From assembly GCA_017427385.1 (NCBI GenBank), contig JAFRSW010000019.1:1-64000 (forward strand): a DNA stretch of 64,000 nucleotides. Direction: 5' to 3'. Positions 6,317-34,050 of this stretch are shown here, piece after piece (position 1 is the first letter of the stretch; each line of letters starts with the position of its first letter). The DNA comes from Bacteroidales bacterium. Its GTDB lineage: Bacteria > Bacteroidota > Bacteroidia > Bacteroidales > UBA932. The translations under genes were made by a program, and so were the position numbers. The notes under the pieces were generated by a model. That model had not been told where the DNA came from. It saw nothing but the letters and a program-made list of their open reading frames with translations, and did no database searches.

Positions 6317-6333
6317 GTGCCCGTGCACGGAAA
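6317..6333. promoter_or_regulatory. Putative LacI-family operator (site 1)
   Basis: CCGTGCACGG at 6321-6330 is a perfect 10-base palindrome; read on the minus strand the extended site is TTTCCGTGCACGGGCAC. The same extended sequence occurs before GH28 and SusC, and the core between the LacI gene and kdgK. It lies 20 bases before the kduD ATG. Confidence 0.8.
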
Positions 6334-6349
6334 CTAAACTACAATCGAT

Positions 6350-7153
6350 ATGAACAATCCATTTTCTCTTGAAGGCAAGAACGCCTGGATTACCGGAGCA
6401 TCCTACGGTATAGGCTTCAACATCGCCAAGGCATTCGTGGCCGCAGGCATCAAGAACATCATTTTCAACGACATAAATGAGGCGGCGCTTCAGCGCGGAC
6501 TCGACAACTACAAGGAGGCGGGCATCTCCAATGTCAAGGGTTATGTCTGCGACGTCACCAAGGAAGACGACGTCAAGGCTCTCGTGGAGACCATCCACAA
6601 GGAAGTAGGCCAGATCGACATCCTTGTGAACAACGCAGGCATCATCAAGCGCATCCCTATGCACGAAATGAAACGTGCCGAATTCCAGGCGGTTATCGAC
6701 GTCGACCTGGTGGCCCCCTTCATCGTCTCCAGCGCAGTCCTTCCCGAGATGATGGAGCGCCGCGAGGGCAAGATCATCAATATCTGCTCGATGATGAGCG
6801 AGCTCGGTCGCGAGACCGTTTCTGCTTATGCAGCAGCGAAGGGTGGCCTCAAAATGCTCACCCGCAACATCTGCTCGGAGTACGGTGAATACAACATCCA
6901 GTGCAACGGCATCGGCCCCGGCTACATCGCAACGCCCCAGACCGCGCCTCTGCGCGAGCGCCAGCCCGACGGCAGCCGTCATCCTTTCGACTCCTTCATC
7001 TGCGCCAAGACCCCGGCAGGCCGCTGGCTCGAACCCGAGGAACTGGGCGGCCCTGCAGTCTTCCTCGCATCGCACGCGTCCGACGCTGTGAACGGACATA
7101 TATTATATGTAGATGGCGGCATCCTCGCCTATATCGGAAAACAGCCTAAATAG
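6350..7153 (+). CDS. kduD: KduD-type SDR (2-dehydro-3-deoxy-D-gluconate 5-dehydrogenase / gluconate 5-dehydrogenase family)
   Basis: In pectin pathways this enzyme reduces 3-deoxy-D-glycero-2,5-hexodiulosonate to 2-keto-3-deoxygluconate (KDG) in the cytoplasm. The 267-residue protein is a classical short-chain dehydrogenase: cofactor loop TGASYGIG at 15-22, NNAG at 94-97, a catalytic Ser in CSMMSELG, and YAAAK with Tyr160/Lys164. It is followed one base later by kduI, which makes its substrate; that is why I prefer the KduD role over gluconate 5-dehydrogenase, which has the same fold. Its promoter region carries operator site 1, so it is probably the first gene of the pectin transcript and under control of the LacI-type regulator. 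Confidence 0.88.
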   Translation: MNNPFSLEGKNAWITGASYGIGFNIAKAFVAAGIKNIIFNDINEAALQRGLDNYKEAGISNVKGYVCDVTKEDDVKALVETIHKEVGQIDILVNNAGIIKRIPMHEMKRAEFQAVIDVDLVAPFIVSSAVLPEMMERREGKIINICSMMSELGRETVSAYAAAKGGLKMLTRNICSEYGEYNIQCNGIGPGYIATPQTAPLRERQPDGSRHPFDSFICAKTPAGRWLEPEELGGPAVFLASHASDAVNGHILYVDGGILAYIGKQPK

Positions 7154-7154
7154 C

Positions 7155-7997
7155 ATGAAACTGAATTGCACTGTACGCCAGGCATCGAGCAACGTGGATG
7201 CCAAGCACTACGACACCGAACGCATCAGGAAGGAGTACCTGGTGCAGAACCTGATGGTGGCGGATGAAATCAATATGGTCTACTCCATGTTCGACCGCAT
7301 CATCGCCGGCGGAGCCGTTCCCGTGAAGGAAGACCTCCTGCTGAGCGCTCCGGAGATTCTCCGCGCCGATTTCTTCACCCAGCGCCGCGAGCTCGGCATC
7401 ATCAACGTGGGTGGACCCGGCACCGTGCAGGTGGGGAAAGATGAATACCATCTCGAGTACAAGGAAGCCATCTACGTAGGCCGCGGCAACCGCCACGTCA
7501 CTTTCAAGAGCGACAGCGCCGAAAAGCCCGCGCACTTTTACTTCTGCTCCGCCACCGCCCATAGGGAGACCGGAGTGAAGAAGGTGAGCAAGAAGGATGC
7601 TGTGGTGATGCATCTCGGAAGCCTTGAAGAGAGCAACGAACGCACCATCAACCGCCTGCTGGTGAAGGAAGTGGTGCCCTGCTGCCAGTTGCAGATGGGT
7701 ATGACCGAACTCGCCCCGGGCAGCACCTGGAACACCATGCCCGCCCATACCCACGACCGTCGCATGGAAGTCTACTTCTACTTCGAGGTGCCGGACGGCG
7801 CTGCGGTGTGCCACTTCATGGGCGAGCCCCAGGAGACACGCCACATTTGGATGCACAACGAAGAGGCGGTCATCTCGCCCCAGTGGAGCATCCATTCCGC
7901 CTGTGCTACCCGCAACTACACCTTCATCTGGGGCATGTGCGGTGAGAACGACGACTATAACGATATGGACTGGTGCAAGACCGAAGAATTGAAGTAA
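7155..7997 (+). CDS. kduI: 5-dehydro-4-deoxy-D-glucuronate isomerase
   Basis: KduI isomerises 5-keto-4-deoxyuronate, which forms spontaneously from the unsaturated uronates released by pectate lyase and GH105, to the KduD substrate. The 280-residue bicupin carries the metal ligands in AHTHDRRMEVYFYF (His198, His200, Glu205) and SIHSAC (His247). I set the start at 7155 (MKLNCTVRQAS), one base after the kduD stop; an upstream in-frame ATG at 7113 would overlap kduD by 41 bases and adds no family sequence. The tight spacing indicates coupling with kduD. Confidence 0.95.
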   Translation: MKLNCTVRQASSNVDAKHYDTERIRKEYLVQNLMVADEINMVYSMFDRIIAGGAVPVKEDLLLSAPEILRADFFTQRRELGIINVGGPGTVQVGKDEYHLEYKEAIYVGRGNRHVTFKSDSAEKPAHFYFCSATAHRETGVKKVSKKDAVVMHLGSLEESNERTINRLLVKEVVPCCQLQMGMTELAPGSTWNTMPAHTHDRRMEVYFYFEVPDGAAVCHFMGEPQETRHIWMHNEEAVISPQWSIHSACATRNYTFIWGMCGENDDYNDMDWCKTEELK

Positions 7998-7998
7998 G

Positions 7999-8859: not shown

Positions 8860-8861
8860 AT

Positions 8862-11552: not shown

Positions 11553-11637
11553 TTTCTAAAATATTCTCGGAATTATTTAAAAATATTTATATTGCGGGGA
11601 ATTAGCTGCAACTATTTGTTTTTTAATCAATTATAAA

Positions 11638-13239: not shown

Positions 13240-13247
13240 TTACGGCC

Positions 13248-14606: not shown

Positions 14607-14615
14607 ATAGAACGA

Positions 14616-14637
14616 TTTCCGTGCACGGGCACGGTTT
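14616..14637. promoter_or_regulatory. Putative LacI-family operator (site 2)
   Basis: TTTCCGTGCACGGGCACGG contains the core CCGTGCACGG at 14619-14628 plus an additional half-site. It lies about 24 bases before the -7 box of the GH28 promoter, in the -33 region, where binding would exclude polymerase. Confidence 0.8.
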
Positions 14638-14652
14638 TTCAGAAAATGTTTC

Positions 14653-14660
14653 TATCTTTG
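14653..14660 (+). promoter_or_regulatory. Promoter -7 box for the GH28 transcript
   Basis: TATCTTTG is an exact TAnnTTTG match, 27 bases before the GH28 start, with operator site 2 just upstream. Confidence 0.75.
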
Positions 14661-14687
14661 CAAGATAGAGACATTAACTGATAACCG

Positions 14688-16166
14688 ATGAAAGCCCGTG
14701 CACTGATATTATTATTCGTTGCAACCGCCCTTCTGGGAGCCTGTAGTGCGGAAAATGATCTTTATAGAGACCTTCCCTTCGATATGCCGAAGGTGCAGGC
14801 TCCCCGTATTCCGTCCTGTAGCGTGAACCTGCTGGACTTCGGCGGCGCGCCGGACGGAGTGACGCTGAACACGCAGGCCTTCGCAGATGCCATCGACGCC
14901 CTCGTGCAGAAGGGCGGAGGCCGCCTCGTGGTGCCTGCAGGCATCTGGCGCACAGGCCCCATCGGCCTGCAGAGCCACATCGAACTGAATGTCGACAAGA
15001 ACGCAATCATAGTTTTCGACCCCGACCAGGACCTCTATCCCATAATTGACACGAATTTCGAAGGGTTGGACGTCCGCCGCTGCCTTAGTCCAATCCATGC
15101 CGAGGGAGCTACCGACATCGCCATTACCGGCGGTGGCGTAATCGATGGCAGCGGGGAATTCTGGCGTGAAGTCAAGCGCCGCAAGGTTTCGGACGACCAG
15201 TGGAAGGCCATTCTGAAGCGCGGCGGACTGGTGAGCGAAGACGGCAAGAACTGGTTCCCGGACGAAGGCTACGCTAAGGCGCGCGCCACGGCTGGCAGCC
15301 TGAACTATCCCGATCCGTCCCTCGACGAGAACGAAATCAAGACCTTCCTCCGACCGGTGATGGTCAGCCTAAGGAACTGCGAGCGCATCCTTTTGCAGGA
15401 CTGCACCTTCCAGAACAGCCCATGCTGGAACATCCATCCTCTTTGGTGCAAAGACTTGACGATCAGGGATATAACCGTTCGCAACCCGCACTATTCCGCC
15501 AACGGTGACGGCATCGACATCGACGCTTGCGAGGGCGTTATCCTCACCGGATCCTCCTTTGACGTGGGCGACGATGCCATCTGCATAAAGTCCGGCAAGG
15601 ATGCCGACGGCCGCCGCCATGCACGCAAATGCCGTAACCTAATCATCTCTGACTGTACCGTCTATCACGGTCATGGTGGATTCGTGGTAGGCAGCGAAAT
15701 GTCCGGAGGCGTGGAGAACATAGTCGTGCGTGACTGCCGTTTCATCGGCACCGACGTGGGCCTGCGCTTCAAGAGCACCCGCGGCCGCGGTGGCCTTGTG
15801 AAGGATATCTGGTGCGACCATATCTACATGAAAGACATTGTCAGCTACGGAGTTATCTTCAATCTCTACTACGCTGGAGTTGCCGCATCAGACATGGCTG
15901 ATGGCGTCGTCGAGCCCATCGTCGACGTAGATGAAACCACTCCCGAGATGCGCGACATCCACTTTTCGGACATCATCTGCGCCGGCGCAAAGCAGGCCAT
16001 CTTCATCAATGGCCTGCCCGAACTGCCCGTCAGCGGCATCAGCTTCGCCAACAGCAATTTCACCGCCGACAAACCCGCCGAAATCCACTTCGCCACCGAT
16101 ATTTCCTTCGACAACGTCCTGGTTAACGGTAAGCCCATCGCAAACTCTCCGCTGAGTGACAGATAG
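14688..16166 (+). CDS. GH28 polygalacturonase lipoprotein
   Basis: This enzyme hydrolyses alpha-1,4 links between galacturonate residues of pectin. The 492-residue protein has lipobox LLGAC (Cys19), so it is probably anchored in the outer membrane or periplasm. The parallel beta-helix carries the four GH28 signatures in order: NGDGIDIDAC at 272-281 (catalytic Asp), VGDDAICIKSG at 293-303 (two catalytic Asp), GHGG from 328, and RFKSTRG from 360 (the RIK-type motif). A short insertion at about 155-220 with KRRKVSDDQWKAILKRGG may narrow the cleft; exo versus endo action cannot be decided. It begins a transcript of its own behind operator site 2, followed by esterase, GH105 and PL1 genes. Confidence 0.95.
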   Translation: MKARALILLFVATALLGACSAENDLYRDLPFDMPKVQAPRIPSCSVNLLDFGGAPDGVTLNTQAFADAIDALVQKGGGRLVVPAGIWRTGPIGLQSHIELNVDKNAIIVFDPDQDLYPIIDTNFEGLDVRRCLSPIHAEGATDIAITGGGVIDGSGEFWREVKRRKVSDDQWKAILKRGGLVSEDGKNWFPDEGYAKARATAGSLNYPDPSLDENEIKTFLRPVMVSLRNCERILLQDCTFQNSPCWNIHPLWCKDLTIRDITVRNPHYSANGDGIDIDACEGVILTGSSFDVGDDAICIKSGKDADGRRHARKCRNLIISDCTVYHGHGGFVVGSEMSGGVENIVVRDCRFIGTDVGLRFKSTRGRGGLVKDIWCDHIYMKDIVSYGVIFNLYYAGVAASDMADGVVEPIVDVDETTPEMRDIHFSDIICAGAKQAIFINGLPELPVSGISFANSNFTADKPAEIHFATDISFDNVLVNGKPIANSPLSDR

Positions 16167-16243
16167 TTACGTGAAATCGTCTGGTGAAAATGTACCAGAC
16201 ATATATAGATAAATGCTTGATAATCAGATATAAACTATCAACG

Positions 16244-17896
16244 ATGAAAAAGATAAGTATCTTGGCGATATCCTGGCTGCTTTGCAGCGCATTCACGATC
16301 CACACCATAGGAGATTCCACCATGGCAGAGAAAAACCTGCAGAAAGCGGGCCCTGAACGCGGCTGGGGAATGATGTTCCAGAACTTCCTGGACGAGGGGG
16401 TGACCGTCATCAACTATGCCCAGAACGGCCGCAGCACCAAGAGTTTCAGGGACATGGGCCTCTGGGACAAGGTGGAAGCAAACCTTCAGCCGGGGGATTA
16501 TCTCTTTATCCAGTTCGGCCATAACGATTCCAAGAAGGATGATCCGGCCCGCTATGCGGCTGCGTTCGGTGCGTACCAGGACAATCTCCGTTTCTTCATC
16601 AAAACCGCCCGGGAGAAGGGTGCGAAGCCGGTTCTGCTGACTCCCATCGCCCGCCGGCATTTCAAGAACAGCGTTCTCGACCGAAATCATCACGGCGACT
16701 ATCCCGCGGCCATGAAGCAGGTTGCGGAAGAAGAGAACGTGCCCCTGCTGGACATGACCACGGCCACACTCGACTGGCTCGAAAGCCTGGGCGATGAGGG
16801 CTCGAAGCCCTACTTCATGATCAGCACCGGCAAGAACGACAACACCCACACCATCGCCTGCGGAGCCCGTAAGGTTACCGAACTCGTCTGCGAGAAGATA
16901 CGCGAACAACTCCCCGAAATCGCGGAGCACCTGATCAGCTATGACATAGTGGTTTCCGCGGACGGCCACGGCGACTTCATGACCGTGCAGGAGGCCATCG
17001 ACGCCTGCCCGGACTATTCGCACGAGCGCATCACGCGCATCCGCATACGCGCAGGTATATATAAGGAAATGGTCACCATCCCTCACAACAAATTCCGCCT
17101 GCACATCAGCGGCGAAGGCGCAGAAAAGACCATCATCACCTTCGACAAGTACGCCCGCAAGCCCTGGCCCGTGGGTGGATTCCCGATGGGAACGTCCGGC
17201 AGCGCCAGCGTCTACATCCACTCCAGCTATGTGACCATGGAGGATCTGACCATAGAGAACAGCGCCGGCGAGGGCAAGGAGATAGGCCAGGCCGTGGCTC
17301 TCTTCACCGACGGGGACTTCCTGTTCTTCCACCGCTGCCGCCTGATCGGAAATCAGGATACTGTATATACTTACGGCCGATTTGGCAAGGATGGAGGAAT
17401 CAAGCGCAACTACTTCCTGGACTGCTACATAGAGGGCACGACCGATTTCATCTTCGGCCCGTCGATCGCGTATTTCGAGAACTGCACCATCCACAGCAAG
17501 AAGAATAGCTACGTGACGGCCGCTTCCACCCTGCAGGGGCAGAAGTACGGATACGTGTTCAAAAACTGCAAACTCACCGCCGCACCCGGCATCGACAAAT
17601 GCTATCTCGGCCGCCCCTGGGGCGCCTATGCCAAGACTGTTTTCATGGAGTGCGAACTCGGTGAGCACATTGTGGCGGAAGGTTGGCACGACTGGGAGAA
17701 ACCTGGCAAGCCGGATACTAAGAAAAACTCCTATTACGCTGAGTATAAGAACTTTGGCCCAGGTGCGGCTTCCAAGAAGGAGCGCGTGAAGTGGAGCAAG
17801 CAGCTAAGCGATAAGCAGGCTGCGGAATACGCTTTCGAAAAGGTTATGTTCCAGGAGCAGGACGGTATTAAATGGAATCCATACGAGAACAGATGA
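16244..17896 (+). CDS. Two-domain pectin esterase: CE12 acetylesterase fused to CE8 methylesterase
   Basis: This 550-residue exported protein joins two de-esterifying enzymes. Residues about 20-245 form an SGNH hydrolase of the rhamnogalacturonan acetylesterase type (CE12): TIGDSTMAEK with nucleophile Ser25, an oxyanion Asn in FGHNDSKKDD, and the Asp/His pair in KNDNTHTIACGA. Residues about 250-550 form a right-handed helix pectin methylesterase (CE8): GDFMTVQEAI, GQAVALFTDGDF, RLIGNQDTVYT with a catalytic Asp, IEGTTDFIFG with the second Asp, and LGRPWGAYAKTVF with the substrate Arg and Trp. I chose the ATG at 16244, where a signal sequence begins. The last codons overlap the GH105 start (ATGA). 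Confidence 0.93.
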   Translation: MKKISILAISWLLCSAFTIHTIGDSTMAEKNLQKAGPERGWGMMFQNFLDEGVTVINYAQNGRSTKSFRDMGLWDKVEANLQPGDYLFIQFGHNDSKKDDPARYAAAFGAYQDNLRFFIKTAREKGAKPVLLTPIARRHFKNSVLDRNHHGDYPAAMKQVAEEENVPLLDMTTATLDWLESLGDEGSKPYFMISTGKNDNTHTIACGARKVTELVCEKIREQLPEIAEHLISYDIVVSADGHGDFMTVQEAIDACPDYSHERITRIRIRAGIYKEMVTIPHNKFRLHISGEGAEKTIITFDKYARKPWPVGGFPMGTSGSASVYIHSSYVTMEDLTIENSAGEGKEIGQAVALFTDGDFLFFHRCRLIGNQDTVYTYGRFGKDGGIKRNYFLDCYIEGTTDFIFGPSIAYFENCTIHSKKNSYVTAASTLQGQKYGYVFKNCKLTAAPGIDKCYLGRPWGAYAKTVFMECELGEHIVAEGWHDWEKPGKPDTKKNSYYAEYKNFGPGAASKKERVKWSKQLSDKQAAEYAFEKVMFQEQDGIKWNPYENR

Positions 17897-19104: not shown

Positions 19105-19105
19105 G

Positions 19106-20993: not shown

Positions 20994-21008
20994 TCAATTT
21001 TTTCTTCT

Positions 21009-21016
21009 TATATTTG
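21009..21016 (+). promoter_or_regulatory. Promoter -7 box for SusC
   Basis: TATATTTG is an exact TAnnTTTG match, 44 bases before the SusC start, with operator site 3 upstream. This supports a separate transcript for susC-susD-DUF4957-uxaC. Confidence 0.7.
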
Positions 21017-21060
21017 ACGCCGAAACTAATATAGTAACTACTATTTTAATCAAATAACCA

Positions 21061-24000: not shown

Positions 24001-24270
24001 TTCTCCGACTGGGCGGTAGAGGATGCATCATTCCTCCGCCTCCAGAGCCTCACGGTCGGATACACCCTTCCCGAGAAACTCACCGAGAAGTATCATGTCC
24101 GCCGTGCACGCGTCTACGTTACGGGAACCAACCTGTTCTGCCTCACCAACTACTCCGGATACGATCCTGAGGTCGATACCCGCCGCGCCACTCCGCTTAC
24201 TCCCGGTGTGGACTATTCGGCATATCCCAAGTCCATCGGCTGGGTCGCAGGTCTCAACATAACTTTCTAA
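21061..24270 (+). CDS. SusC-like TonB-dependent outer-membrane transporter
   Basis: This 1069-residue protein is the outer-membrane import channel for pectin oligomers, working with SusD as a lidded pore powered by TonB. It has a signal peptide (LSLSAQ), a carboxypeptidase-regulatory-like domain at about 23-95 (TTIKGVVSDENGEPLMGAGV), a TonB-box-like LDEVVVVGYATVKR near 102, a plug domain with VRGGGSI, PLYIVDGFPV and AIYGSRGANGVIIVTTK, and a C-terminal 22-strand barrel ending in an aromatic residue (GLNITF). It follows operator site 3 and is followed 13 bases later by SusD. No ECF sigma or hybrid two-component gene is adjacent, which fits control by the LacI-type regulator. Confidence 0.95.
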   Translation: MKSLAKKLVAVLLCIGAGLSLSAQTTIKGVVSDENGEPLMGAGVFVEGTTIGTVTGLDGDYQLTVPADAANLVFSFIGLADQTVAIGGRTEINIVLKADETFLDEVVVVGYATVKRRDLLGAVSSVGSDKLTEQPVTTVSQALSGKMAGVSVVTTEGDPDADVKIRVRGGGSITQDNSPLYIVDGFPVESINDIPSSEIASIDVLKDAFSTAIYGSRGANGVIIVTTKSAERGQKISVKFNTYYGLKRMANAGAIQAMDVENFVKFQYELGTIRDNLKNDYIPFFGTFDDIDLYKGLKGNNWVDAVFGNTGSTFSADFSVSGSGEGYNWTVGYAHMGDEAIMAGSNYGRDNLNFKGNFKTSKKTSLDVNVRYSKVNVRGSGANGIKDTGTTSGNGRLKHAVSYSPIPLANTVEGVDEEQDYGDNAPPLLSVADNDSRRIRATLNTNAALNWDIIDNLRLKIEGGYEDYRQTDDRFYGLTTYYVANNSTIKNTPSNQHKEAFRTKYRNTNTLNYDFKDIIGSEDHSLTALLGQELTITKSNTLEMMVDGLPTFYGAEMAWNFLSSGTPSSANNYYNPDDRLLSFFGRVNYDYKHKYSLGATLRADGSSKFAPGHQWGFFPSAAASWTISNEDWMESTRGWIDQLKLRYSFGTAGNNNIPSGLLVKQYSSVNTTWLSQSPNYWMAGKVMNNPDLTWETTYSHNLGLDFSLSNGAVSGSLEVYQNDIKDLLINFPITGSGYDSQYRNIGSTRNRGIELTLNMPIIQKKDVSLNISGNIAYNVNRVTDLGGLNSITAQSYWASTEIGDDYIVQVGQPLGNMYGYVVDGFYTADDFTWNGSKWVLNEGVVDDSAVIGASYLMPGAIKLKNVDKSADNKVTVADRTIIGNASPDFTGGFSFSGYYKGFDFSANFNYMIGNEVYNANKIEFTSSRKFHNRNLLNSMDVDKRWTNIDWTTGELITDAATLKAVNKGKTMWSPAVGSAVFSDWAVEDASFLRLQSLTVGYTLPEKLTEKYHVRRARVYVTGTNLFCLTNYSGYDPEVDTRRATPLTPGVDYSAYPKSIGWVAGLNITF

Positions 24271-24283
24271 ACGGACAAGGAAT

Positions 24284-26104
24284 ATGAAAAAGATACATTT
24301 ATATATCGTCTGTGTGCTGGGCCTCATGATGGCCGCACCTTCCTGCAGCAAGCTGCTCGAGACATCGTCGCCTTCGGCGTTCGATGCAGCCACGGTCTAT
24401 TCCAACTACGCTCTGGCAGAAGGCACGATCTTCGGTATCACCGAAGCGTTCTGCGAAGTCAACTCCTATCGCGGAAGGTTCCTTCCCTGGTACGGATTCA
24501 ATACCGATATCGAGTGGTACAACACATACAAGCCCGGTGACGGCAAGTCCGACATCGCAGCTTACCAGTGCGAGCCCAACAACTCCCAGCTCAACCTTTC
24601 CAACGGTCCGTTCCCTCTCATGTACATGGGAATCGAGCGCGCCAACCTCGTAATCGAGGGCATACGCGAATACGGCAGCCCCGCCACCAGGCCCGAGATG
24701 GCCTATCTGCTCGGCGAGGCCCTGACTCTCCGTGCGATGATCTACTACGACCTCATCAAGGCATGGGGAGACGTTCCCGCCCGTTTCGAATCTCTCACCT
24801 CCGGCACCATCTATGCCGCCAAGGAGAGCCGCGATGTCATCTTCAAGCAGATTCTCGCCGACCTGGAAGAGGCTATTCCCAACCTCTACTATCCGGGCGT
24901 TGAGGCAGCTGCTACCACCGACCGCGTGAACAAGGTGTTCGCCGAAGGCCTCTATGCAAGGATCGCGCTCCTCGCATCCGGCTACGCCCTCCGTCCCGAT
25001 GACGGAAAGGTCGGAACCGGCGACCTGGGCACCATCCGCCTCTCCAGCGATCCCGCCCTCACCAAGGACGTCCTCTACCCCAAGGCACTCGCATACCTGC
25101 AGGATGCCATCGGCAAGGCCTCCCTCGAGAGCGACTACCGCAACTACTGGTACAAGGTCAACAATATGGACAACCTCACCGCAGGCACATCCTACGAGAC
25201 CCTGTTCGTGATTCCGTTCGGAGCAGGCCGCGGCAGGTGGAACTTCACCTTCGCAATCGCTTCCGAGGGTGCATCCATCTCCAACGGCGTGACCCGTGGC
25301 GGAGATGCCGGCCCGCTTCCCACCATGTACTTCAAGTATGGTGCGAACGACCAGCGCCGCGACATCACCTGCGTCAACTACAAGTGGCTCAAGGACAATT
25401 CCATAGAGCCTGCCGGAATCGCCAAGTGGTACTTCGGAAAATACCGTTTCGAGTGGATGGACGCACAGCCCTATACCGGCGGTAACGACGATGGCATCAA
25501 GCCCGTTGTGATGCGTTACTCCGACATTCTCCTCATGGCTGCCGAAATAGCCAACGAGCAGAACGATCTCACCGCTGCAAAGACCTATCTGAAAGAGGTT
25601 CGCAAGCGTGCATACAAGGGCCATGAGGCCGAAGCCGAAACCTATGTGGACGGCCTGGCCGACAAGACCGCGATGTTCAACGCCATCGTGGACGAGCGCG
25701 CCCTCGAGTTCTGCGGCGAGTTCCTCCGCAAGGCCGATCTCATCCGCTGGAACATGCTGAAGACCAAGCTGGACGACGCTGTTACCGACATGAAGGCCCT
25801 CCGTGCCCTCAGCGGCAGCTATGCGACGCTCACCGGCGACATCTACTACACTTTCGCAGACGACGAGAAGTCCATCGACATTCACTTCCTCAAGACCGGC
25901 GAGGCAGCGCCTGCTGGAGCAGAGGTATCTGCCGAGTATGTCACCAAGTTCGACGATGCCAAGAGCAGCGGGTTCTACACCAACCGCATCGAAGGCATCT
26001 ACTACCGTAACCCCGAGCAGTACATGTTCTGGCCTATCTTCAACGATACCATGACCAACAGCCAGGGGCACATCAAGAACGATTACGGTTACGACAGCAT
26101 CTAA
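24284..26104 (+). CDS. SusD-like glycan-binding lipoprotein
   Basis: This 606-residue partner of SusC captures oligosaccharides at the cell surface. It has a lipoprotein signal ending PSC (Cys21) and SusD-family segments: AEGTIFGITEAFCEV, a central EALTLRAMIYYDLIKAWGDVPAR with the helix typical of the tetratricopeptide core, a VVMRYSDILLMAAEIANEQ motif near residue 405, and DERALEFCGEFLRKADLIRWN near 468. It is co-transcribed with SusC upstream and with the giant beta-helix lipoprotein 12 bases downstream. Confidence 0.95.
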   Translation: MKKIHLYIVCVLGLMMAAPSCSKLLETSSPSAFDAATVYSNYALAEGTIFGITEAFCEVNSYRGRFLPWYGFNTDIEWYNTYKPGDGKSDIAAYQCEPNNSQLNLSNGPFPLMYMGIERANLVIEGIREYGSPATRPEMAYLLGEALTLRAMIYYDLIKAWGDVPARFESLTSGTIYAAKESRDVIFKQILADLEEAIPNLYYPGVEAAATTDRVNKVFAEGLYARIALLASGYALRPDDGKVGTGDLGTIRLSSDPALTKDVLYPKALAYLQDAIGKASLESDYRNYWYKVNNMDNLTAGTSYETLFVIPFGAGRGRWNFTFAIASEGASISNGVTRGGDAGPLPTMYFKYGANDQRRDITCVNYKWLKDNSIEPAGIAKWYFGKYRFEWMDAQPYTGGNDDGIKPVVMRYSDILLMAAEIANEQNDLTAAKTYLKEVRKRAYKGHEAEAETYVDGLADKTAMFNAIVDERALEFCGEFLRKADLIRWNMLKTKLDDAVTDMKALRALSGSYATLTGDIYYTFADDEKSIDIHFLKTGEAAPAGAEVSAEYVTKFDDAKSSGFYTNRIEGIYYRNPEQYMFWPIFNDTMTNSQGHIKNDYGYDSI

Positions 26105-26116
26105 TCCGAACGCGTT

Positions 26117-29100
26117 ATGAAATACAAGAATATAATCAAATTCACAGTCGCTTCCATCCTCATGCTCGGTGCAGTCGCATGTGCCACCGATCAGTTCGAG
26201 GAGATCAGCGAAATAAAGCTTTCCCGCTGCCTTGAGCCCACCAACCTGTCCGCCAAGGTCAACAGCTCGCTCGGAGATGTCGTGACCTTCAGCTGGGACG
26301 TGGCCAAGGGCGTGGACAACTACATCCTTACCGTTTATACGGATGCGGACCTGACCGCCCAGTATCTTACCGAGAACCTCGACCCTTCACAGGTGCCTTA
26401 CCAGAAGAAGCTGGAGGCCGACAAGACTTACTGGTTCACCGTGCAGGCAACTGCTGACGGCAAGAAGGACTCCAAGGTCGCCGCTTACGACAAGTCCATC
26501 AAGACTTACGCCGTGAAGGATAACCTCTACCTCAAGGTGACCGCCCGCACAGCTAACAGCATCTCGCTGGCATGGTCGAAGGATGTTGCCGACTTCGGCG
26601 ACGTCACCCATGTGGAATATGCGGTGACCGGCTCCGAGGAGACCTCCAAGTACGACCTGACCGCAGAAGACAAGGCTGCCGCGACGGCAACTATAACCGG
26701 CCTCGCCGCCTCGAAGGAGTATACCGTGTCCCTCTTCTATCTCTCCGCCAGCCGCGGACAGGTGGATGCATGGACCACTCCCGACGTCACCGGATTCACC
26801 GAGGTGTCCACCCTCGCAGCCCTGCAGAACGCAGTGCTTACCGAGGATGCCCAGATCGTCCTCAAGATGGCAGGCTCTCCCTACGACATCGAGGCTATGG
26901 ACCTCTCCAAGGGTGTCACCATCGTGGGTGAGGAGACCGCCGACGGCACCAAGCCGGTGCTCACCGGTGAACTCCACATCGCCGACACCTGGGACGGTTC
27001 CGACCTTTACTTCGAGGGAGTCGAGTTCAACGGTGCTCCCACCGCCACCAGTCCTTCCGGATTCGGTTTCGCCATCCAGAACAAGAACGGCGGCGCCGTG
27101 GCCGACAAGAATATAGGCAACATCACCTACAAGAACTGCGTCATCTGCAACTATTCCAAGGGCCTCATCTACGAGTGGGGTAAGGCGATGAAGCTGGGTG
27201 AAGTGACCTACGACAGCTGCGACATCCACGACATCAACTCCGACGGAACCGGCGGCGGCGACGTGTTCGATATCCGTAACGCCACCACCATCGCAAAGCT
27301 CTCCTTCGTGGGCAACACCATCTGGCAGGGCATGCGTACCTTCATCCGCATCGATGCCGGAACGATCGACGCTTTCGTGTTCGAGAACAACACCCTCCAG
27401 AACCTGAACTTTGTCGACAACACCAACAACGCCGGCATATTCGGATTCCAGATCGTTCCCGGATCCTTCTCCTTCAAGAACAACCTGTTCCTGAACATGA
27501 CCGGAAAGGCCGTCCTGGCCAGTTCGAACGCCAAGTATACTCCCGCGTCCGGAATGACTCTCACAGCGTCCAACAACTGGTTCTACAACCTGCCGAAGGA
27601 CGATGCCGGAGCACTCACATACTTCACCGACAACTTCACCATGGCCCAGGCAAACGGTACGATCCTGGCTACGGACCCTTGCTACAACGCTCCCGGCGGA
27701 TACTATAACATAGTGGCCGACAGCGAGATCGCAGGCAAGGAAGTCGGCGCTCCCAAGTGGTGGACTCCTTATGTCGAGGAGCCCGAAGACCTGACCCAGG
27801 GCGTCATCACCGAAGCCCACACATGGGATCTCGGCAACGCCAGGGACTTCTCCGGAACCATCAAGAAACAGATGGTGCGCGACGGCCTGCTCGTCTCTGC
27901 ATCCGAGAGTTGCCCCATCGAAGCGGCGGACGGAACCCTGAAGTTCACCGTTCCTACCGTCACCGACCGTAACAAGGTTCCTTCCGACGGATATCTTGCA
28001 TTCAAGGTAAATGCTCCCGGCTCCGTGGTAATACGTGCTGCCGGCAGTGCAGCGTCCCACGTCATCGTGGCCACCAGGCCCGTTGCCGGAGGCGACCTGA
28101 TCGTCAAGGGCGGTGTATCTCCTGTGGCAGATGCTCCCGCACCCCAGAAGATCCTCATCAGCGATGTTACCGAGGAATCCTGGGTCTACATCTATTCTTC
28201 CGGCGAGATCGCAGTCGCCCAGCTTGCCTGGTCGAAGGACGTAAGCCTCGTGAATACGGCTCTGCCCGCACCTTCACCCAAGGCTACTCCTTCATCCTTC
28301 ACCGCAGGCGAGGCCACCGACATCAAGATCAGCTGGGAAGCTGTGACCAACGCAGCCAGCTATTCCGTGGTGTTCAGCGGCAAGACCTATGCTGTGGACG
28401 GCCTCGAATACACTATCGAAGGCAAGACCACCAGCATGCTCGACGCCGGCAGCTATGAGGTTTCCGTGTTCGCGAATCCTTCCGACAAGGATATCTACAA
28501 CACCCAGTCCGAAGCCGGTATAGCCGCATTCGCAGTGCTGCCTAAGGGCGGCGGCGAAGAAAGCACCGAGTTCATCGTGGCCAGTGTGGATGACCTCCTC
28601 GCAGCCATCGCCGCAGGTAAGGACTTCATTACCCTGAAGTACAGCGACACTCCTTACGTGCTCGCCGATCCTCTCACGCTCGTCGCTCCTCTGCACCTGA
28701 GCGGACAGACCTCCGGCGACAAGAAGACCGCCATCACCGCCAGCATCACCCTCAGCGGAGAGATAGGCGGAAGTGTAGTGTTCCGTAACCTCGACTTCGT
28801 TGGAAGCGGTGCCTCGCTGCTCATCGAAGACAAGACCACTGCAGCACCCGTTGCCGACACCGTAGCTATCTACGACAGCAACATCCACGGCATCAAGGCC
28901 CTCTACGACAACTCCGGAAAGGCCGTGTCGAACGTGCAGTACGTCATCTTCAAGGGCAACCTCATCACCGACAGCTCAGCGGGAGCCGACTTCATCGACA
29001 TGCGCACCGGCGCAAGCCACGACTTCGTGTTCGAGAACAACACCGTGGCCAACAGTTGCCGCACCTTCGTGCGCACTGACGCCGCCCATGAGATGAACTC

Positions 29101-31507
29101 CGCGGTAATCCGCAACAACACCTTCTACAAGGTGGCCACCAACTCCTCCAGCAAGGACAACAATGGTATCTTCCACATCCGCAGCGCTGCGGGCGCGGGC
29201 CTGAACGAGTATCGTGTGGAGAACAACTTCTTCTACTCCATCCTCATCGACACCGAGCCTTCCAACGCCGCTGGATTCCCGAAACTCCGCAGCAAGGGTG
29301 GTATTACTCCTTACACCGTAGCCAACAACTACTTCTACAACTGCGAAGACCGTGAAGGCAAGGAAGCCTATTCCTTCTGGGCTAACATGACCAAGGAAGA
29401 AGGTACCGCCGGCGGTGGTGCAATACTGCCCGCAGATCCTTGCAAGGATGCCGCCAACGGCGACTTCACCCTCACGAACGGTGTGATGATGAACGCAGGC
29501 GTGGGCGATCCTCGCTGGAACATCATGGCAGGCAGCACTCCGAGTTCCGAGATCACTGTGAACGATGCCGACGGCCTCCTCACCGCCATCTCAGCGGGCA
29601 AGAAGGTCATCACTCTCGCTGACGGAACCTATGACCTGACCGCAGCTGCTACCGTGCTCAACGCTCCTCTCACCCTCACCGGTGGCAAGGGCGCTATCGT
29701 GCAGGGCAAGTTCGAACTCGGCGCAGGCGCGACTTCCTTCACCGTGAAGGGCATCACCATCGATGGCAACAACGCTCTCGACAATGCATTCTATGTGCAG
29801 GACGGTGCTGCAGTGACTTCCTTCACTCTCTCCGGAGTGGATGTCAAGAACTTCAAGAACCGTCTGTTCTATCAGGATAAGGAAAGCTCGACGGTGGGCA
29901 GCCTCGTGATCGACGGAGCCCTGGTTACCGGCATGGGCACCAGCGGCGACTTCATCGATGTCCGCAAGGGCGGCCTCACCGCGGTCAAGGTGGTTAACAG
30001 CACCTTCGCCAACGGCATACGCACCTTCGCTCGTATCGATGCAGCGGTCGTCTGTGGCTCCATCCTGGTGCAGAACAATACCTTCTACAACCTCTGCTCC
30101 GTGGACAGTAAGGACAACAACGGTATCTTCCACGTTCGCAGCACCTCCGTCACCGACGCAAAGCAGGTTGTCGTGAAAGACAACCTCTTCGCAGCCATGA
30201 AGAAGACTGCTGACACTCCTTCCAATGCCCAGGGCTTCCCGAAACTTGTCAGCAAGGCTTCTTCAACCATCTTCGTTCCTGTGTTCAGCCACAACTACTT
30301 CTATGATGTGGTAACCACCGAGAACAACCTCGACACCGAATACAGCTGGTGGGCATATTCCGCACAGGATGTGGCTACCGCCGGATACGGTGTGGTGCTC
30401 ACTGCAGATGTGTTCAAGGATGCCGCCGCCGGCGACTTCACCATCGTCCACGACCTCGTGGCGAGCGAGAAGGTGGGTGATCCCCGCTGGATCAAGAGCG
30501 CTGCTCCCGCAGGAGCCGCATTCAACGTGAATAACGTCGAGGAACTTGTGACCGCTATCACCGCCGGCAAGGACGTTATCGCCCTCGCGGCAGGTACTTA
30601 CGACCTCACGAAGGTTGACGGTGCATCCTCCGGTGTCGTGACCCTGAGCAAGGGCGTGACCCTGAAGGGCGTAGCCAAGAACGGTATCAAGCCCGAGGTT
30701 ATCGGTGGCATCAAGCTCGCCGCAACGGAAGGTGACTTCGTGCTCGAGAACCTCCGCCTGAACGGTGTCTACGACAACGCAGGCAGCGAGGCCAAGGTCG
30801 GTAACATGATCGACATCGACGCCTCTTCTGTCCTGGGTGCGATGACCCTTAAGGATTGCGAAATCTACGGATACTCCAACCGTCTCATCTCCGGATCGGG
30901 TGAGTCTTCCATGGGACCTCTCACCATCACCGGACTGCTCGTGCACGATTTCGGCACCAGCGGAGACTTCATCGACTTCCGCAAGGGCACGGTGTCCAGC
31001 GTGAAGATCAACAACAGCACCTTCTACAACGGCATCCGCACCTTCCTGCGTATGGATGCAGGCGTAAAGGTGGGCGCAGTCACAGTAGAAAACAACACCT
31101 TCTACAACCTCTGCTCCGTGGATAGCAAGGATAACAATGGTATCATGCACGTGCGTGCCACTACCGGTGTTGCTCCCGCAGCACTCAGCGCGGCCGCCCG
31201 CCGCATACTCGTGAGAAAGAACATCTTCGCGGCCATGAAGAAGGCAGTGGATGCTCCCACGCAGTCCAACGGCTTCCCGAAGCTGGTCAGCAAGACCTCC
31301 GAGACCATCAAGCATCCTTACATCACCGACAACATCTTCTTCGACATCGAAGCTACCGGCACCTACAGTTGGTGGAACACCATGGCAGAGGAAGACATCA
31401 CCGCGGCTGGTACCGTGCTCGACGAGACTCCTTTCGCAGGAGATCCCACTACGGGCAAGTTCACCGTCAAGGCTGCATATAAGGGTTATGGCGATAGCCG
31501 CTGGTAA
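26117..31507 (+). CDS. Giant surface lipoprotein with four beta-helix modules (DUF4957/DUF5123-like)
   Basis: This 1796-residue lipoprotein (lipobox AVAC, Cys22) occupies the surface-glycan-binding slot after SusD. It opens with two FN3-like domains (about 35-225). Module 1 (about 228-558) is a parallel beta-helix unit. A non-helical domain (about 559-710) and another FN3-like domain (716-812) follow. Modules 2 (816-1143), 3 (1145-1467) and 4 (1469-1796) are similar units. Each begins with a segment like LLTAISAGKKVITLADGTYDL, contains NNTFYN...SKDNNGI.H.R and GFPKL.SK, and ends near GDPRW or GDSRW. I associate this architecture with DUF4957/DUF5123 proteins of pectin loci; no catalytic residues are recognisable, so binding is more likely than cleavage. 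Four modules in one chain is unusual. Confidence 0.8.
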   Translation: MKYKNIIKFTVASILMLGAVACATDQFEEISEIKLSRCLEPTNLSAKVNSSLGDVVTFSWDVAKGVDNYILTVYTDADLTAQYLTENLDPSQVPYQKKLEADKTYWFTVQATADGKKDSKVAAYDKSIKTYAVKDNLYLKVTARTANSISLAWSKDVADFGDVTHVEYAVTGSEETSKYDLTAEDKAAATATITGLAASKEYTVSLFYLSASRGQVDAWTTPDVTGFTEVSTLAALQNAVLTEDAQIVLKMAGSPYDIEAMDLSKGVTIVGEETADGTKPVLTGELHIADTWDGSDLYFEGVEFNGAPTATSPSGFGFAIQNKNGGAVADKNIGNITYKNCVICNYSKGLIYEWGKAMKLGEVTYDSCDIHDINSDGTGGGDVFDIRNATTIAKLSFVGNTIWQGMRTFIRIDAGTIDAFVFENNTLQNLNFVDNTNNAGIFGFQIVPGSFSFKNNLFLNMTGKAVLASSNAKYTPASGMTLTASNNWFYNLPKDDAGALTYFTDNFTMAQANGTILATDPCYNAPGGYYNIVADSEIAGKEVGAPKWWTPYVEEPEDLTQGVITEAHTWDLGNARDFSGTIKKQMVRDGLLVSASESCPIEAADGTLKFTVPTVTDRNKVPSDGYLAFKVNAPGSVVIRAAGSAASHVIVATRPVAGGDLIVKGGVSPVADAPAPQKILISDVTEESWVYIYSSGEIAVAQLAWSKDVSLVNTALPAPSPKATPSSFTAGEATDIKISWEAVTNAASYSVVFSGKTYAVDGLEYTIEGKTTSMLDAGSYEVSVFANPSDKDIYNTQSEAGIAAFAVLPKGGGEESTEFIVASVDDLLAAIAAGKDFITLKYSDTPYVLADPLTLVAPLHLSGQTSGDKKTAITASITLSGEIGGSVVFRNLDFVGSGASLLIEDKTTAAPVADTVAIYDSNIHGIKALYDNSGKAVSNVQYVIFKGNLITDSSAGADFIDMRTGASHDFVFENNTVANSCRTFVRTDAAHEMNSAVIRNNTFYKVATNSSSKDNNGIFHIRSAAGAGLNEYRVENNFFYSILIDTEPSNAAGFPKLRSKGGITPYTVANNYFYNCEDREGKEAYSFWANMTKEEGTAGGGAILPADPCKDAANGDFTLTNGVMMNAGVGDPRWNIMAGSTPSSEITVNDADGLLTAISAGKKVITLADGTYDLTAAATVLNAPLTLTGGKGAIVQGKFELGAGATSFTVKGITIDGNNALDNAFYVQDGAAVTSFTLSGVDVKNFKNRLFYQDKESSTVGSLVIDGALVTGMGTSGDFIDVRKGGLTAVKVVNSTFANGIRTFARIDAAVVCGSILVQNNTFYNLCSVDSKDNNGIFHVRSTSVTDAKQVVVKDNLFAAMKKTADTPSNAQGFPKLVSKASSTIFVPVFSHNYFYDVVTTENNLDTEYSWWAYSAQDVATAGYGVVLTADVFKDAAAGDFTIVHDLVASEKVGDPRWIKSAAPAGAAFNVNNVEELVTAITAGKDVIALAAGTYDLTKVDGASSGVVTLSKGVTLKGVAKNGIKPEVIGGIKLAATEGDFVLENLRLNGVYDNAGSEAKVGNMIDIDASSVLGAMTLKDCEIYGYSNRLISGSGESSMGPLTITGLLVHDFGTSGDFIDFRKGTVSSVKINNSTFYNGIRTFLRMDAGVKVGAVTVENNTFYNLCSVDSKDNNGIMHVRATTGVAPAALSAAARRILVRKNIFAAMKKAVDAPTQSNGFPKLVSKTSETIKHPYITDNIFFDIEATGTYSWWNTMAEEDITAAGTVLDETPFAGDPTTGKFTVKAAYKGYGDSRW

Positions 31508-31516
31508 TAAAAGGAT

Positions 31517-32935
31517 ATGAAAGAATTCATCAACAAAGACTTCATGCTCACTACAGGCGCTGCCCGTGAACTCTATCACGGGCACGCCGAGGGCATGCCC
31601 ATCATAGATTACCATTGCCATCTCGTGCCCCAGCAGATCGCAGAGAACATCCAGTTCCGCGACATTACCCAACTCTGGCTGGTGGACGGCCACTACGGCG
31701 ACCATTACAAATGGCGCGCGATGCGCGGAAACGGCGTGAGCGAGGAGTATCTCACCGGAGGCACCAAGTCCTCTTGGGAGACCTTCGAGAAGTGGGCTGA
31801 GACCGTTCCTTACCTGATGAGGAACCCCCTTTACCACTGGACTCATCTCGAGCTCAGCCGTGTATTCGGCATCGACAAGGTGCTGAGCCCCAAGACCGCC
31901 CGCGAGATTTACGAAGAGTGCAATGCCAAGCTCGCCACGGAGGAATTCCGCGGCCAGGCCCTCATCCGAAAGTTCGGAGTGAAGGTGGTTTGCACCACCG
32001 ACGATCCCGCCGACGACCTCCGCTGGCACAAAATGATTGCCGAGCATCCCTTCGGCACCAAGGTGCTGCCTGCATGGCGTCCGGACAAGGCAATGGCAAT
32101 CGAGGATCCCAAGTCCTACAAGGAATACCTGAAGAAACTTGGCGAGGCCGCCGATAAGGAGATAGATTCCTACGCAGACCTCATCGAGGCCCTGCAGAAG
32201 AGGCACGATTTCTTTGCCGCCAACGGCTGCAAGCTCTCCGACCACGGCCTGGAGACCTTCTATGCCGCCGACTACAAGCAGATCGAAATCGAGGCCATCT
32301 TCAAGATGGTGCTCCTCGGAAAGCGCCCTTCGGAGGGAGAACTTCTGAAGTTCCGCAGCGCATTCCTGCACGATATGGCAGTAATGGACGCAGAGTCCGG
32401 CTGGGCACAGCAGTTCCACGTTGGTGCCATCCGCAACAACAACAGCAAGATGTTCAACCTGGTAGGCCCCGACACTGGTTTCGATGCCATCCACGACCTG
32501 CCCACCGCAGCCGCCGGCCACAAGTTCTTCGACCGTCTGGCATCCGAGGACAAGCTTGCCAAGACCATCCTCTACTGCCTCAATCCCAAGGATAACGAGG
32601 TGATGACGGTGATGGCCTACACCTTCAACGACGGCACCTTCCCCGGCAAGATGCAGTTCGGTTCCGGCTGGTGGTTCCTGGATCAGGAAGACGGCATGCG
32701 CAAGCAGCTGAACGCCCTCAGCGCCCTCGGGCTCCTGAGCCGCTTCGTGGGCATGCTCACCGACAGCCGCTCCTTCATCAGCTATCCGCGCCACGAGTAC
32801 TTCCGCCGCATACTCTGCGACGTGCTCGGAAAGGATATCGAGGAAGGCCGCCTGCCCGCATCCGAACTGGATTTCATCGGCCAGATGGTTGAGGATATCT
32901 GCTACAACAACGCAGACCGTTACTTCGGATTCTAA
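31517..32935 (+). CDS. uxaC: Uronate isomerase
   Basis: UxaC isomerises D-galacturonate to D-tagaturonate and D-glucuronate to D-fructuronate, the first cytoplasmic step for saturated uronates. The 472-residue protein is a full-length amidohydrolase-fold member: IIDYHCHL at 29-36 supplies the first metal-binding histidines, with family segments KWRAMRGNGV, VVCTTDDPADDL, HVGAIRNNNSKMF, YCLNPKDNEV and GMLTDSRSFISYPRHEYFRRILC. It is the last gene of the susC transcript, nine bases after the giant lipoprotein. Its TAA overlaps the TAG of the convergent LacI-type gene within the four bases at 32932-32935. Confidence 0.96.
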   Translation: MKEFINKDFMLTTGAARELYHGHAEGMPIIDYHCHLVPQQIAENIQFRDITQLWLVDGHYGDHYKWRAMRGNGVSEEYLTGGTKSSWETFEKWAETVPYLMRNPLYHWTHLELSRVFGIDKVLSPKTAREIYEECNAKLATEEFRGQALIRKFGVKVVCTTDDPADDLRWHKMIAEHPFGTKVLPAWRPDKAMAIEDPKSYKEYLKKLGEAADKEIDSYADLIEALQKRHDFFAANGCKLSDHGLETFYAADYKQIEIEAIFKMVLLGKRPSEGELLKFRSAFLHDMAVMDAESGWAQQFHVGAIRNNNSKMFNLVGPDTGFDAIHDLPTAAAGHKFFDRLASEDKLAKTILYCLNPKDNEVMTVMAYTFNDGTFPGKMQFGSGWWFLDQEDGMRKQLNALSALGLLSRFVGMLTDSRSFISYPRHEYFRRILCDVLGKDIEEGRLPASELDFIGQMVEDICYNNADRYFGF

Positions 32936-33984
32936 TAGTACTCCGCGTTATAGCGCGTGAGGATGTCCATAGGCATGAAGTTGTCCCGCTTGGCGGGGGC
33001 TTTGCCGAAGACAGCATACTCGGTGAGGGCGCTGATTGCGCTGAACACCTGAACATCGGGGCGCTGGGCAATAAGGGAAGTTACAAGACCCTTCTTGAGC
33101 GCCAATAGATTTGCCGCGAGGTTGTCGAATCCGACCACGCGGCATTTCTTTTCCGGATGCTTCTCCAGGAAGCGCGTGATCAGGTAGATCCGGGAGTTGA
33201 ACATCGCAACGCTCTGAATGCCGGGATTCTCGGCAAAGAAGCCGGCGAGAATTCCGTCTATCTCCCTGGGCTTGTTGGGGTTGATGAAGACGTTGCTTAT
33301 CCTGCACTTGGGGAAGTGCTCGGAGATGTAGTCTATGAAGCCCTCGCGACGGTTGATGGTAGGGTCGGACTGGCCGTGCTTGTCGCGCTGGATGCGGATG
33401 ATGCCCACTTCCTTCATATCCATCTCGTCGGTGAGGATGGAAGCGCATAGGTATCCGCTCTGGTAGATGGGCATGCCGTAGTAGGCCAGATAGCCGTTGT
33501 CTTCCAGTTTGGAATCGAAATACACGTATGGGATGTTGGCCGCCCGGAGCTTGGCCGTGAAGACAAGTGTTTCGTTCTTGAACATGGGCGGAAGCGCCAC
33601 GCCGGCTGGCTCCAGCGCAAGGACTTCGTCGCAAGCGCTGCGGAAGGATTCGATGTCGTACTGGTCGTAATCCACCTTCTGCACCTTGATGCCGAAGTTC
33701 CGCCCGAAGTCCATGCCGCGCACGATGCCGGGCTCGGCGAGTTCCCAGAAGTCCCCGTCCTTACTGCGGGGGAGAAGAACGGCGACCACGCGCTCCTTGT
33801 TCTGCGCAAGCAGCGAGGCATAGATATTGGGCTCGTAGCCGAGATCTTCTATGACCTTCATCACCTTTGCGTAACTCTTCTTCGACACACCTTCGCGGTT
33901 GTGCAGCACACGGTCCACCGTGCCCTTGGAAAGGCCGGTCAGACGGGCTATATCCTTGATGGTGATTTTCTGCTTGTTTTCCAT
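32932..33984 (-). CDS. LacI-family transcriptional regulator, probable repressor of the pectin regulon
   Basis: This 350-residue regulator has an N-terminal helix-turn-helix at about 7-30 (ITIKDIARLTGLSKGTVDRVLHNR), the hinge region up to about 60, and a periplasmic-binding-protein-like effector domain from about 65 (RVVAVLLPRSKDG) to the end. I set the start at 33984 (MENKQK); the frame is open upstream only because it runs antisense to kdgK. It is divergent from kdgK. The intergenic region holds operator site 4 between two -7 boxes, so the protein probably represses both kdgK and itself. The same palindrome precedes kduD, GH28 and SusC. The inducer is unknown; KDG or a related uronate metabolite would fit. 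Confidence 0.92.
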   Translation of the reverse strand: MENKQKITIKDIARLTGLSKGTVDRVLHNREGVSKKSYAKVMKVIEDLGYEPNIYASLLAQNKERVVAVLLPRSKDGDFWELAEPGIVRGMDFGRNFGIKVQKVDYDQYDIESFRSACDEVLALEPAGVALPPMFKNETLVFTAKLRAANIPYVYFDSKLEDNGYLAYYGMPIYQSGYLCASILTDEMDMKEVGIIRIQRDKHGQSDPTINRREGFIDYISEHFPKCRISNVFINPNKPREIDGILAGFFAENPGIQSVAMFNSRIYLITRFLEKHPEKKCRVVGFDNLAANLLALKKGLVTSLIAQRPDVQVFSAISALTEYAVFGKAPAKRDNFMPMDILTRYNAEYY

Positions 33985-34011
33985 GATTCTATGCGCTTCA
34001 GTAATTGTTTT

Positions 34012-34019
34012 CAAATATA
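34012..34019 (-). promoter_or_regulatory. Promoter -7 box for the LacI-type gene
   Basis: TATATTTG on the minus strand matches TAnnTTTG, 27 bases before the regulator's ATG. Operator site 4 occupies its -33 region. Confidence 0.7.
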
Positions 34020-34028
34020 GTAATAATT

Positions 34029-34050
34029 TTTCCGTTACCGTGCACGGAAA
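34029..34050. promoter_or_regulatory. Putative LacI-family operator (site 4), shared by divergent promoters
   Basis: CCGTGCACGG at 34038-34047 lies within TTTCCGT...ACGGAAA flanks. On the minus strand it reads TTTCCGTGCACGGTAACGG. It sits where the -33 elements of both the kdgK and regulator promoters should be. Confidence 0.82.

Follow-up and report, generated by a model that had tools for sequence, protein, structure and literature searches.

A CG-centred operator predicted to place a SusC/SusD pectin locus under a LacI-family repressor in Bacteroidales

We analyzed a stretch of 64,000 nucleotides from a Bacteroidales bacterium (positions 1 to 64,000 of contig JAFRSW010000019.1, assembly GCA_017427385.1), called the window hereafter, in which genes for the capture and depolymerization of pectin and for uronate catabolism surround a gene for a LacI-family protein, lacI. 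This protein, encoded on the minus strand at 32935-33984, very probably is the autoregulated repressor of a pectin/galacturonate regulon. Its predicted operator is a 22-nt even palindrome with a central CG, for which relatives give the consensus TTTCCGTNNNCGNNNACGGAAA. The anatomy of the site, its conservation, its place in the promoters and its co-occurrence with the regulator were all read from the DNA, and they are described below.

The operator follows the regulator gene. We collected 80 lacI-bearing loci, all from other genomes, and searched the 400 bp upstream of lacI. A match to the palindrome with three mismatches or fewer was present in 72 loci, 57 of which had at most one mismatch and 29 a perfect site. 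Over the same loci the reversed pattern was never found (0 of 80), and 100 permuted palindromes gave a mean of 0.69 loci and a maximum of 16. The 14-nt core of the site was kept within 1.5 kb upstream of lacI in 77 of the 80 loci, including five of the eight without a close match. Alignments of lacI-upstream regions made without motif selection led to the same site: in 19 regions the invariant columns were CGT...CG...ACG, lying within TTTCCGTGCACGGTAACGGAAA-like sequences, and a second motif-blind alignment of 12 regions agreed on these columns.

An earlier reading of the window from its sequence alone had proposed a shorter palindrome, the 10-mer CCGTGCACGG, as the shared regulatory site. Its sites proved to be real, but the conserved symmetric unit is the 22-nt palindrome, whose dyad lies 3 bp away from that of the 10-mer; the 10-mer is one operator arm plus the centre. 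Column information was symmetric about the central CG (r=0.81, with 0.63 for the next best of 15 centres) and showed no such symmetry about the TG|CA dyad of the 10-mer (r=-0.14). The central CG was invariant in all 67 unique operators, which had been selected with the 22-nt pattern at three mismatches or fewer, and also in the 19-region alignment, which was not chosen by motif. Plain complementarity slightly favours the 10-mer dyad (0.71 over eight pairs, compared with 0.65 at the CG dyad), and it is because of conservation that we chose the CG dyad. The 10-mer was rejected as the operator since its conservation is asymmetric, it is kept in only 34 of the 67 unique operators, and it leaves the invariant ACG arm unaccounted for.

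The passages of a LacI-family survey that describe operators give as the norm an even palindrome of 16-22 nt with a central CG, close to the start codon (PMC4052901). The site described here agrees in all three respects, being 22 nt long with an invariant CG. It differs in that the main operators upstream of lacI are asymmetric, with the half-sites TTTCCGTGCAC and TTTCCGTTACC. Seven of the 80 loci (L093, L101, L115, L119, L121, L122 and L128) carry two operators, each with at most two mismatches, exactly 24 bp apart from start to start between GH28 and lacI, and a 57-bp spacing occurs in three further loci. These double operators suggest cooperative sites; the 24-bp spacing does not exactly match the peaks given in those passages of the survey, at 13, 22 and 32 bp (PMC4052901).

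We then compared gene content across relatives. The gene divergent from lacI was the glycoside hydrolase family 28 (GH28) gene in 38 loci, kdgK in 35, a major facilitator superfamily transporter gene in one and an unlabelled gene in six. As is typical of LacI-family regulators, the operator thus lies in the promoter of its own regulator gene and near genes of the pathway, with kdgK or GH28 divergent in 73 of 80 loci. Among 101 genomes of the same genus, a site with at most one mismatch was found in 28 of the 30 genomes that carry a close lacI (identity of 48% or more, one partial gene included; 56 sites) but in 14 of the 71 genomes without one (16 sites; Fisher p=2e-12). For the reversed pattern the count was 8. 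We also inspected 21 sites distant from lacI, which came from 20 regions of relatives. Fifteen of these precede uxaC (6), kduI (3), a gene for a SusC-like TonB receptor (4), a kduD-like gene (1) or GH28 (1). A mannitol-dehydrogenase-type gene stands on the opposite side of five of the six sites that precede uxaC, and the kduD-like protein encoded behind the relative's site is 87% identical to that of the window. The proposal of a LacI-type regulon with autoregulation is hence supported by the core upstream of lacI, by the co-occurrence of site and regulator, and by the recurrence of the site before the same pathway genes.

The same data bear on whether the motif might belong to another regulator, either a second LacI-type protein or an unseen factor, with lacI merely one of its targets. 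A second LacI-type helix-turn-helix (HTH) is encoded on contig C16 of the assembly, and a site in the promoter of a regulator gene is by itself no proof of autoregulation. Against this, the site follows this particular lacI through 77 of 80 loci and two gene neighbourhoods and co-occurs with it across genomes, and no site with three mismatches or fewer was found on C16. We consider control by another regulator very improbable.

Within the window, a scan confirmed the four positions at which the sequence-only reading had placed the 10-mer (6321, 14619, 20981 and 34038), and gene calls by profile models upheld its assignment of these positions to the promoter regions of the kduD-like gene, GH28 and susC and to the lacI/kdgK intergenic region (sites 1 to 4). 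The same reading had described flanks shared by the sites, and these were found as described: all four sites read TTTCCGTGCACGG on one strand, and the GGCAC extension is shared by sites 1, 2 and 3. Its list of sites had overlooked a fifth exact copy, at 20049. The window held 11 matches to the 10-mer at one mismatch or fewer, compared with a mean of 3.07 after shuffling, and 11 was reached in 1 of 100 shuffles. The whole assembly (1,930,471 bases, 77.75% complete) contains six exact copies, five of them inside the window, so the 10-mer is not randomly scattered over the genome. A binomial estimate for at least five of six copies falling within a 27.7-kb span is about 4e-9, or 2e-7 if one copy is taken as given.

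The sixth copy, on contig C13, lies inside a coding open reading frame (ORF), as does the copy at 20049. The two share a codon phase, in which they encode Ser-Val-His-Gly, and we judged the copy at 20049 to be a coding coincidence and not an operator. We considered and rejected a role for it as an auxiliary looping operator. Of the 31 relatives that carry the gene, 30 were aligned (L079 was left out), and none has the exact 10-mer at this position; L111 is one base off, and the peptide is partly conserved among relatives.

Two of the six genome copies of the 10-mer being coding coincidences, and site 1 scoring inside background in a matrix search, one could ask whether the shared 10-mer as a whole reflects composition or codon use. 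The genome-wide rarity of the 10-mer, the intergenic placement of its promoter-borne copies and their conservation all argue otherwise, and we regard the chance of such a coincidence as negligible. For sites 3 and 4 in particular, their conservation is a strong argument against it.

The individual sites differ in quality. Sites 3 and 4 match the consensus without a mismatch, and site 4 is conserved in orthologues. They ranked first and second both by R1, a sequence model built from 31 operators of other genomes (27.7 and 24.7 bits), and by a 22-column matrix applied to the 32 places in the assembly with three mismatches or fewer (35.7 and 35.4). Only one other place in the assembly, the coding place C3:74709, matches the 22-mer with at most one mismatch. 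Site 2 has three mismatches; it was third by R1 (20.4 bits) and scored 24.0 by the matrix, under C3:74709 (26.6). The six places that R1 returned, from 150 scored among 1382 candidates, were site 3, site 4, site 2, C3:74709 (15.9 bits), the coding place 20044 (15.6 bits) and site 1. The order by the 22-column matrix was site 3, site 4, C3:74709, a second register of site 4 (25.8), site 2 and 20040 (22.9). When a 26-column matrix was applied to the window alone, sites 3, 4 and 2 took ranks 1 to 3. Site 1 was absent from the matches with three mismatches or fewer; one of its arms is intact, and it reached 14.9 bits as a local match by R1. Sites 2 to 4 therefore stand out in the genome by these scores, and site 1 does not. 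That site 1 belongs to the regulon is uncertain: it is degenerate and not separable by score, and its candidacy comes from its position and from the kduD and kduI sites of relatives.

The second register of site 4 (34035-34056) overlaps it with an offset of 6 bp, and the lacI/kdgK region may hold two overlapping operator registers. We considered C3:74709 and a further place, C3:73613, as added targets and rejected both, since they lie within ORFs, one encoding a U32 peptidase and one without a Pfam hit.

The position of the sites in the promoters is consistent with repression. We took TAnnTTTG to be the -7 element of these promoters, with a -33 element upstream. As the sequence-only reading had it, sites 2 to 4 lie upstream of a TAnnTTTG box, over the -33 region, and at site 1 the box (6295) comes first, with the site downstream of it. 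Between the edge of the 22-nt operator and the box there are 15 bp at site 2, 15 bp at site 3, and 14 bp (kdgK) or 9 bp (lacI) at site 4. This geometry is nearly fixed in relatives on the side of the divergent gene, where a box was found within 70 bp for 68 of 72 operators, 66 of them at 13-16 bp. It is variable on the lacI side, where a box was found for 39 of 72 operators, 23 of them at 6-9 bp. With TAnnTTTG as the -7 element, an operator over the -33 region fits repression by occlusion. In principle, an operator placed there could also substitute for a weak -33 element, which would make the regulator an activator acting from the same site. We think this quite improbable, because the operator overlaps both divergent -33 regions, fitting occlusion, and because LacI-family regulators are mostly repressors.

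Several observations weigh against a LacI-controlled regulon of the proposed extent. Site 1 is indistinguishable from background: its fixed-width score was 6.5 at best and was beaten in 5 of 20 shuffled windows, and its score of 8.6 in the 22-column matrix is under those of more than ten other places in the genome. The coding place C3:74709, with one mismatch and inside the U32 peptidase gene, outscores site 1 under R1 and, in the matrix, site 2, and score alone is hence insufficient to define the regulon. The R1 list is incomplete given the share of candidates scored, and only an unfiltered search of the window turned up the place 47457 (11.5 bits, in the lysS-like gene). Three of the 80 loci (L059, L062 and L072) have no core within 1.5 kb of lacI. 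The genomes compared for co-occurrence are related and partly incomplete, and the count includes the operator of lacI itself. Four of the 21 sites away from lacI precede unrelated genes or none, and two precede a gene for pyruvate:ferredoxin oxidoreductase. Finally, a gene for an extracytoplasmic function (ECF) sigma factor (41286-41768) lies close to the kdgK gene run.

This last gene, which lies 0.9 kb after eda, raises the question of whether an ECF sigma factor or a hybrid two-component system (HTCS) is in chief control, with the LacI sites as a second layer, an arrangement that would be compatible with a LacI-family repressor of the locus. One HTCS-like ORF of 926 aa is present elsewhere in the assembly, on contig C3. 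The SusC of the window has plug, barrel and CarboxypepD-like domains but no STN signalling domain (Pfam, E<=1e-4), the TAnnTTTG boxes are of the ordinary kind, and none of the 44 frames of the window that were scanned with Pfam, a subset of all its frames, contains an HTCS-type sensor domain. Relatives of the two ORFs that follow the sigma factor gene were found in 3 of 80 loci, a count that flanks of at most 10 kb may have lowered by cutting them off. We consider chief control by a sigma factor or HTCS unlikely. The sigma factor gene and these two ORFs, of 219 and 855 aa and without Pfam hits, together span 41286-44988.

The features of the window are listed in Table 1. The regulator has the N-terminal HTH and the sensor domain that define the LacI family; the HTH is common to it and 12 aligned orthologues, and the closest solved structure by sequence, PDB 3gbv, matches residues 59-350, the sensor part. 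As the sequence-only reading had noted, its gene stands beside site 4, divergent from the kdgK-like gene. The names kduD and kdgK are taken from that reading, and the curated kdgK models score under their cut-offs here; kduI, uxaC and eda pass theirs.

Table 1. Predicted operators, promoter boxes and genes of the pectin/uronate locus in the window
Feature	Position	Strand	Remarks
LacI-family regulator (lacI), 350 aa	32935..33984	-	HTH and periplasmic-binding-protein-like sensor; PF00356 and PF13407 above cut-off (on a longer frame)
Site 1, degenerate candidate operator GCATTGTGCCCGTGCACGGAAA	6312..6333		before kduD-like gene, downstream of -7 box; uncertain
Site 2, predicted operator TTTCCGTGCACGGGCACGGTTT	14616..14637		before GH28; core intact, outer AAA lost
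Site 3, predicted operator TTTCCGTGCCCGTGCACGGAAA	20972..20993		before susC
Site 4, predicted operator TTTCCGTTACCGTGCACGGAAA	34029..34050		between divergent lacI and kdgK-like gene; 10-mer at 34038-34047
-7 box TAATTTTG, kduD-like promoter	6295..6302	+	TAnnTTTG pattern
-7 box TATCTTTG, GH28 promoter	14653..14660	+	TAnnTTTG pattern
-7 box TATATTTG, susC promoter	21009..21016	+	TAnnTTTG pattern
-7 box TATATTTG, lacI promoter	34012..34019	-	TAnnTTTG pattern
-7 box TAAATTTG, kdgK promoter	34065..34072	+	TAnnTTTG pattern
Fifth exact copy of CCGTGCACGG	20049..20058	+	inside ORF 19094-20962
kduD-like short-chain dehydrogenase/reductase (SDR)	6350-7153	+	passes NCBIfam gluconate 5-dehydrogenase model; kduD model under cut-off
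kduI	7152-7997	+	curated model passed
GH28; GDSL esterase-pectinesterase (carbohydrate esterase family 8, CE8) fusion; GH88/GH105-type hydrolase; fn3 protein	14688..20962	+	
SusC-like TonB receptor, SusD, DUF4957/DUF5123 protein, uxaC	21061..32935	+	uxaC: glucuronate isomerase model above cut-off
kdgK-like PfkB kinase, second PfkB kinase, gnd, uxaE, D-mannonate oxidoreductase-type SDR, eda	34093..40341	+	

The catabolic genes include uxaC, uxaE and a mannonate oxidoreductase-type gene; a search for UxuA (mannonate dehydratase) in the 77.75%-complete assembly found none, which leaves the route with an unfilled step. A second PfkB-type kinase gene and gnd, encoding 6-phosphogluconate dehydrogenase (35137-37680), lie within the kdgK-uxaE-eda run, and gnd was found in only 3 of 80 loci of relatives. 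The pectinesterase at 16184-17896 is fused to a GDSL esterase domain and is possibly a combined pectin demethylase/deacetylase. A frame of 935 aa at 8745-11552 combines GH43 with a glucuronoyl-esterase-like C-terminal domain, and two fimbrillin-like (Mfa_like_1) proteins are encoded within the locus at 11638-14606. Among relatives, good operators stand before the pyruvate:ferredoxin oxidoreductase gene in two species (L204, G050:C8; L205, G052:C20), as if this enzyme, which uses the pyruvate from cleavage of 2-keto-3-deoxy-6-phosphogluconate (KDPG), had joined the regulon there.

We also looked at homologues beyond the genus. In other families of the order, 12 upstream regions were compared: five contain CGTGNNCGNNCACG (L168, L169, L170, L173 and L174; regulators with 38-42% identity), one has the CGT...CG...ACG core (L165), one a partial site (L171) and five none (L164, L166, L167, L172 and L175). 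In L168, L169, L170 and L174 (39-42% identity), uxaC is divergent from the regulator gene and a mannitol-dehydrogenase-type, uxaB-like gene lies downstream of it; in L181 the divergent gene is uxaE, again with a mannitol-dehydrogenase-type gene downstream. This neighbourhood, found in the wider Bacteroidales in the five loci examined, is a criterion of our own and not a published definition. By this likeness of neighbourhood it suggests kinship of the regulator with the predicted Bacteroides UxaR.

UxaR (BT0824) is one of several LacI-type uronate regulators predicted in Bacteroides, together with KdgR (BT0487), UxuR (BT1434) and UxmR (BT3613), in a study whose passages on these regulons also predict SusC/SusD operons under the monosaccharide regulators ManR and AraR (PMC3878776). 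The regulons of KdgR and UxmR, among others, are said there to take in a restricted set of periplasmic or extracellular genes, and UxaR is not named in that statement (PMC3878776). Our system is like these in its predicted LacI-family control of the catabolism of glucuronate, galacturonate or mannuronate in Bacteroidales; here, sites also stand before the genes for the outer-membrane SusC/SusD proteins and before the run of genes that starts with GH28. The passages on the rhamnogalacturonan loci of B. thetaiotaomicron likewise describe pectin breakdown through SusC/SusD, but with HTCS sensors and direct-repeat sites (PMC3878776), whereas the scanned frames of the window contain no such domain. 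A pectin polysaccharide utilization locus (PUL) of Gramella flava resembles the window in bringing together susC/susD, pectinesterase, polygalacturonase, kduI, kduD, uxaC, kdgK and eda; the passages on it name the pectin regulator exuR, list lacI with xylan PULs and describe no operator (PMC5306329). The sequence-only reading had called a LacI-controlled SusC/SusD pectin locus notable. The kind of system is thus already known from predicted Bacteroides regulons, and what is new is that such a regulon would extend to a SusC/SusD pectin locus and that its operator is defined across the genus.

From the arrangement of sites and genes we infer binding by the regulator, repression and the extents of the operons, and we propose the following mechanism. 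A dimer of the regulator would bind the 22-nt palindrome. In front of GH28, susC, kdgK and lacI, where 9-15 bp separate the operator from the -7 box that follows it and the operator covers the -33 region, bound repressor would block RNA polymerase; the degenerate site of the kduD-like gene, which closely follows the box, may obstruct the start region. Degradation of pectin would give rise to a cytoplasmic uronate intermediate that releases the repressor. Derepression would then jointly turn on capture at the cell surface and import by SusC/SusD and depolymerization by GH28, CE8 and GH88/105, together with uronate catabolism by the products of uxaC, uxaE, the mannonate oxidoreductase gene, kduI, kdgK and eda. 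Our first guess for the effector is 2-keto-3-deoxygluconate (KDG), chosen because it is the point at which the saturated and unsaturated branches of uronate breakdown converge, and our second is galacturonate or tagaturonate.

Overall, we put forward tentatively, at a confidence just short of even, that an ancestral UxaR-like repressor responding to cytoplasmic uronate came to control the entire pectin locus. Its reach would run from SusC/SusD and secreted pectinases down to KDPG cleavage, and in some species also to pyruvate:ferredoxin oxidoreductase. An intracellular metabolite, and not a membrane-bound sensor, would thereby gate the capture of a polysaccharide at the outer membrane. It would do so by way of one operator, whose distance from the promoter is nearly constant throughout the genus, which is probably Candidatus Cryptobacteroides. 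For a genus that we know from metagenome assemblies of rumen and gut, the results provide a precise operator and regulon of pectin use, both predicted from sequence, and the 22-nt site could aid the annotation of pectin and uronate genes in related metagenomes. The near-fixed spacing of operator and promoter, with kdgK and GH28 as alternative divergent partners, would make this a good system in which to study how regulons grow. The locus is also a clear candidate for a SusC/SusD system under a cytoplasmic metabolite sensor instead of a membrane sensor.

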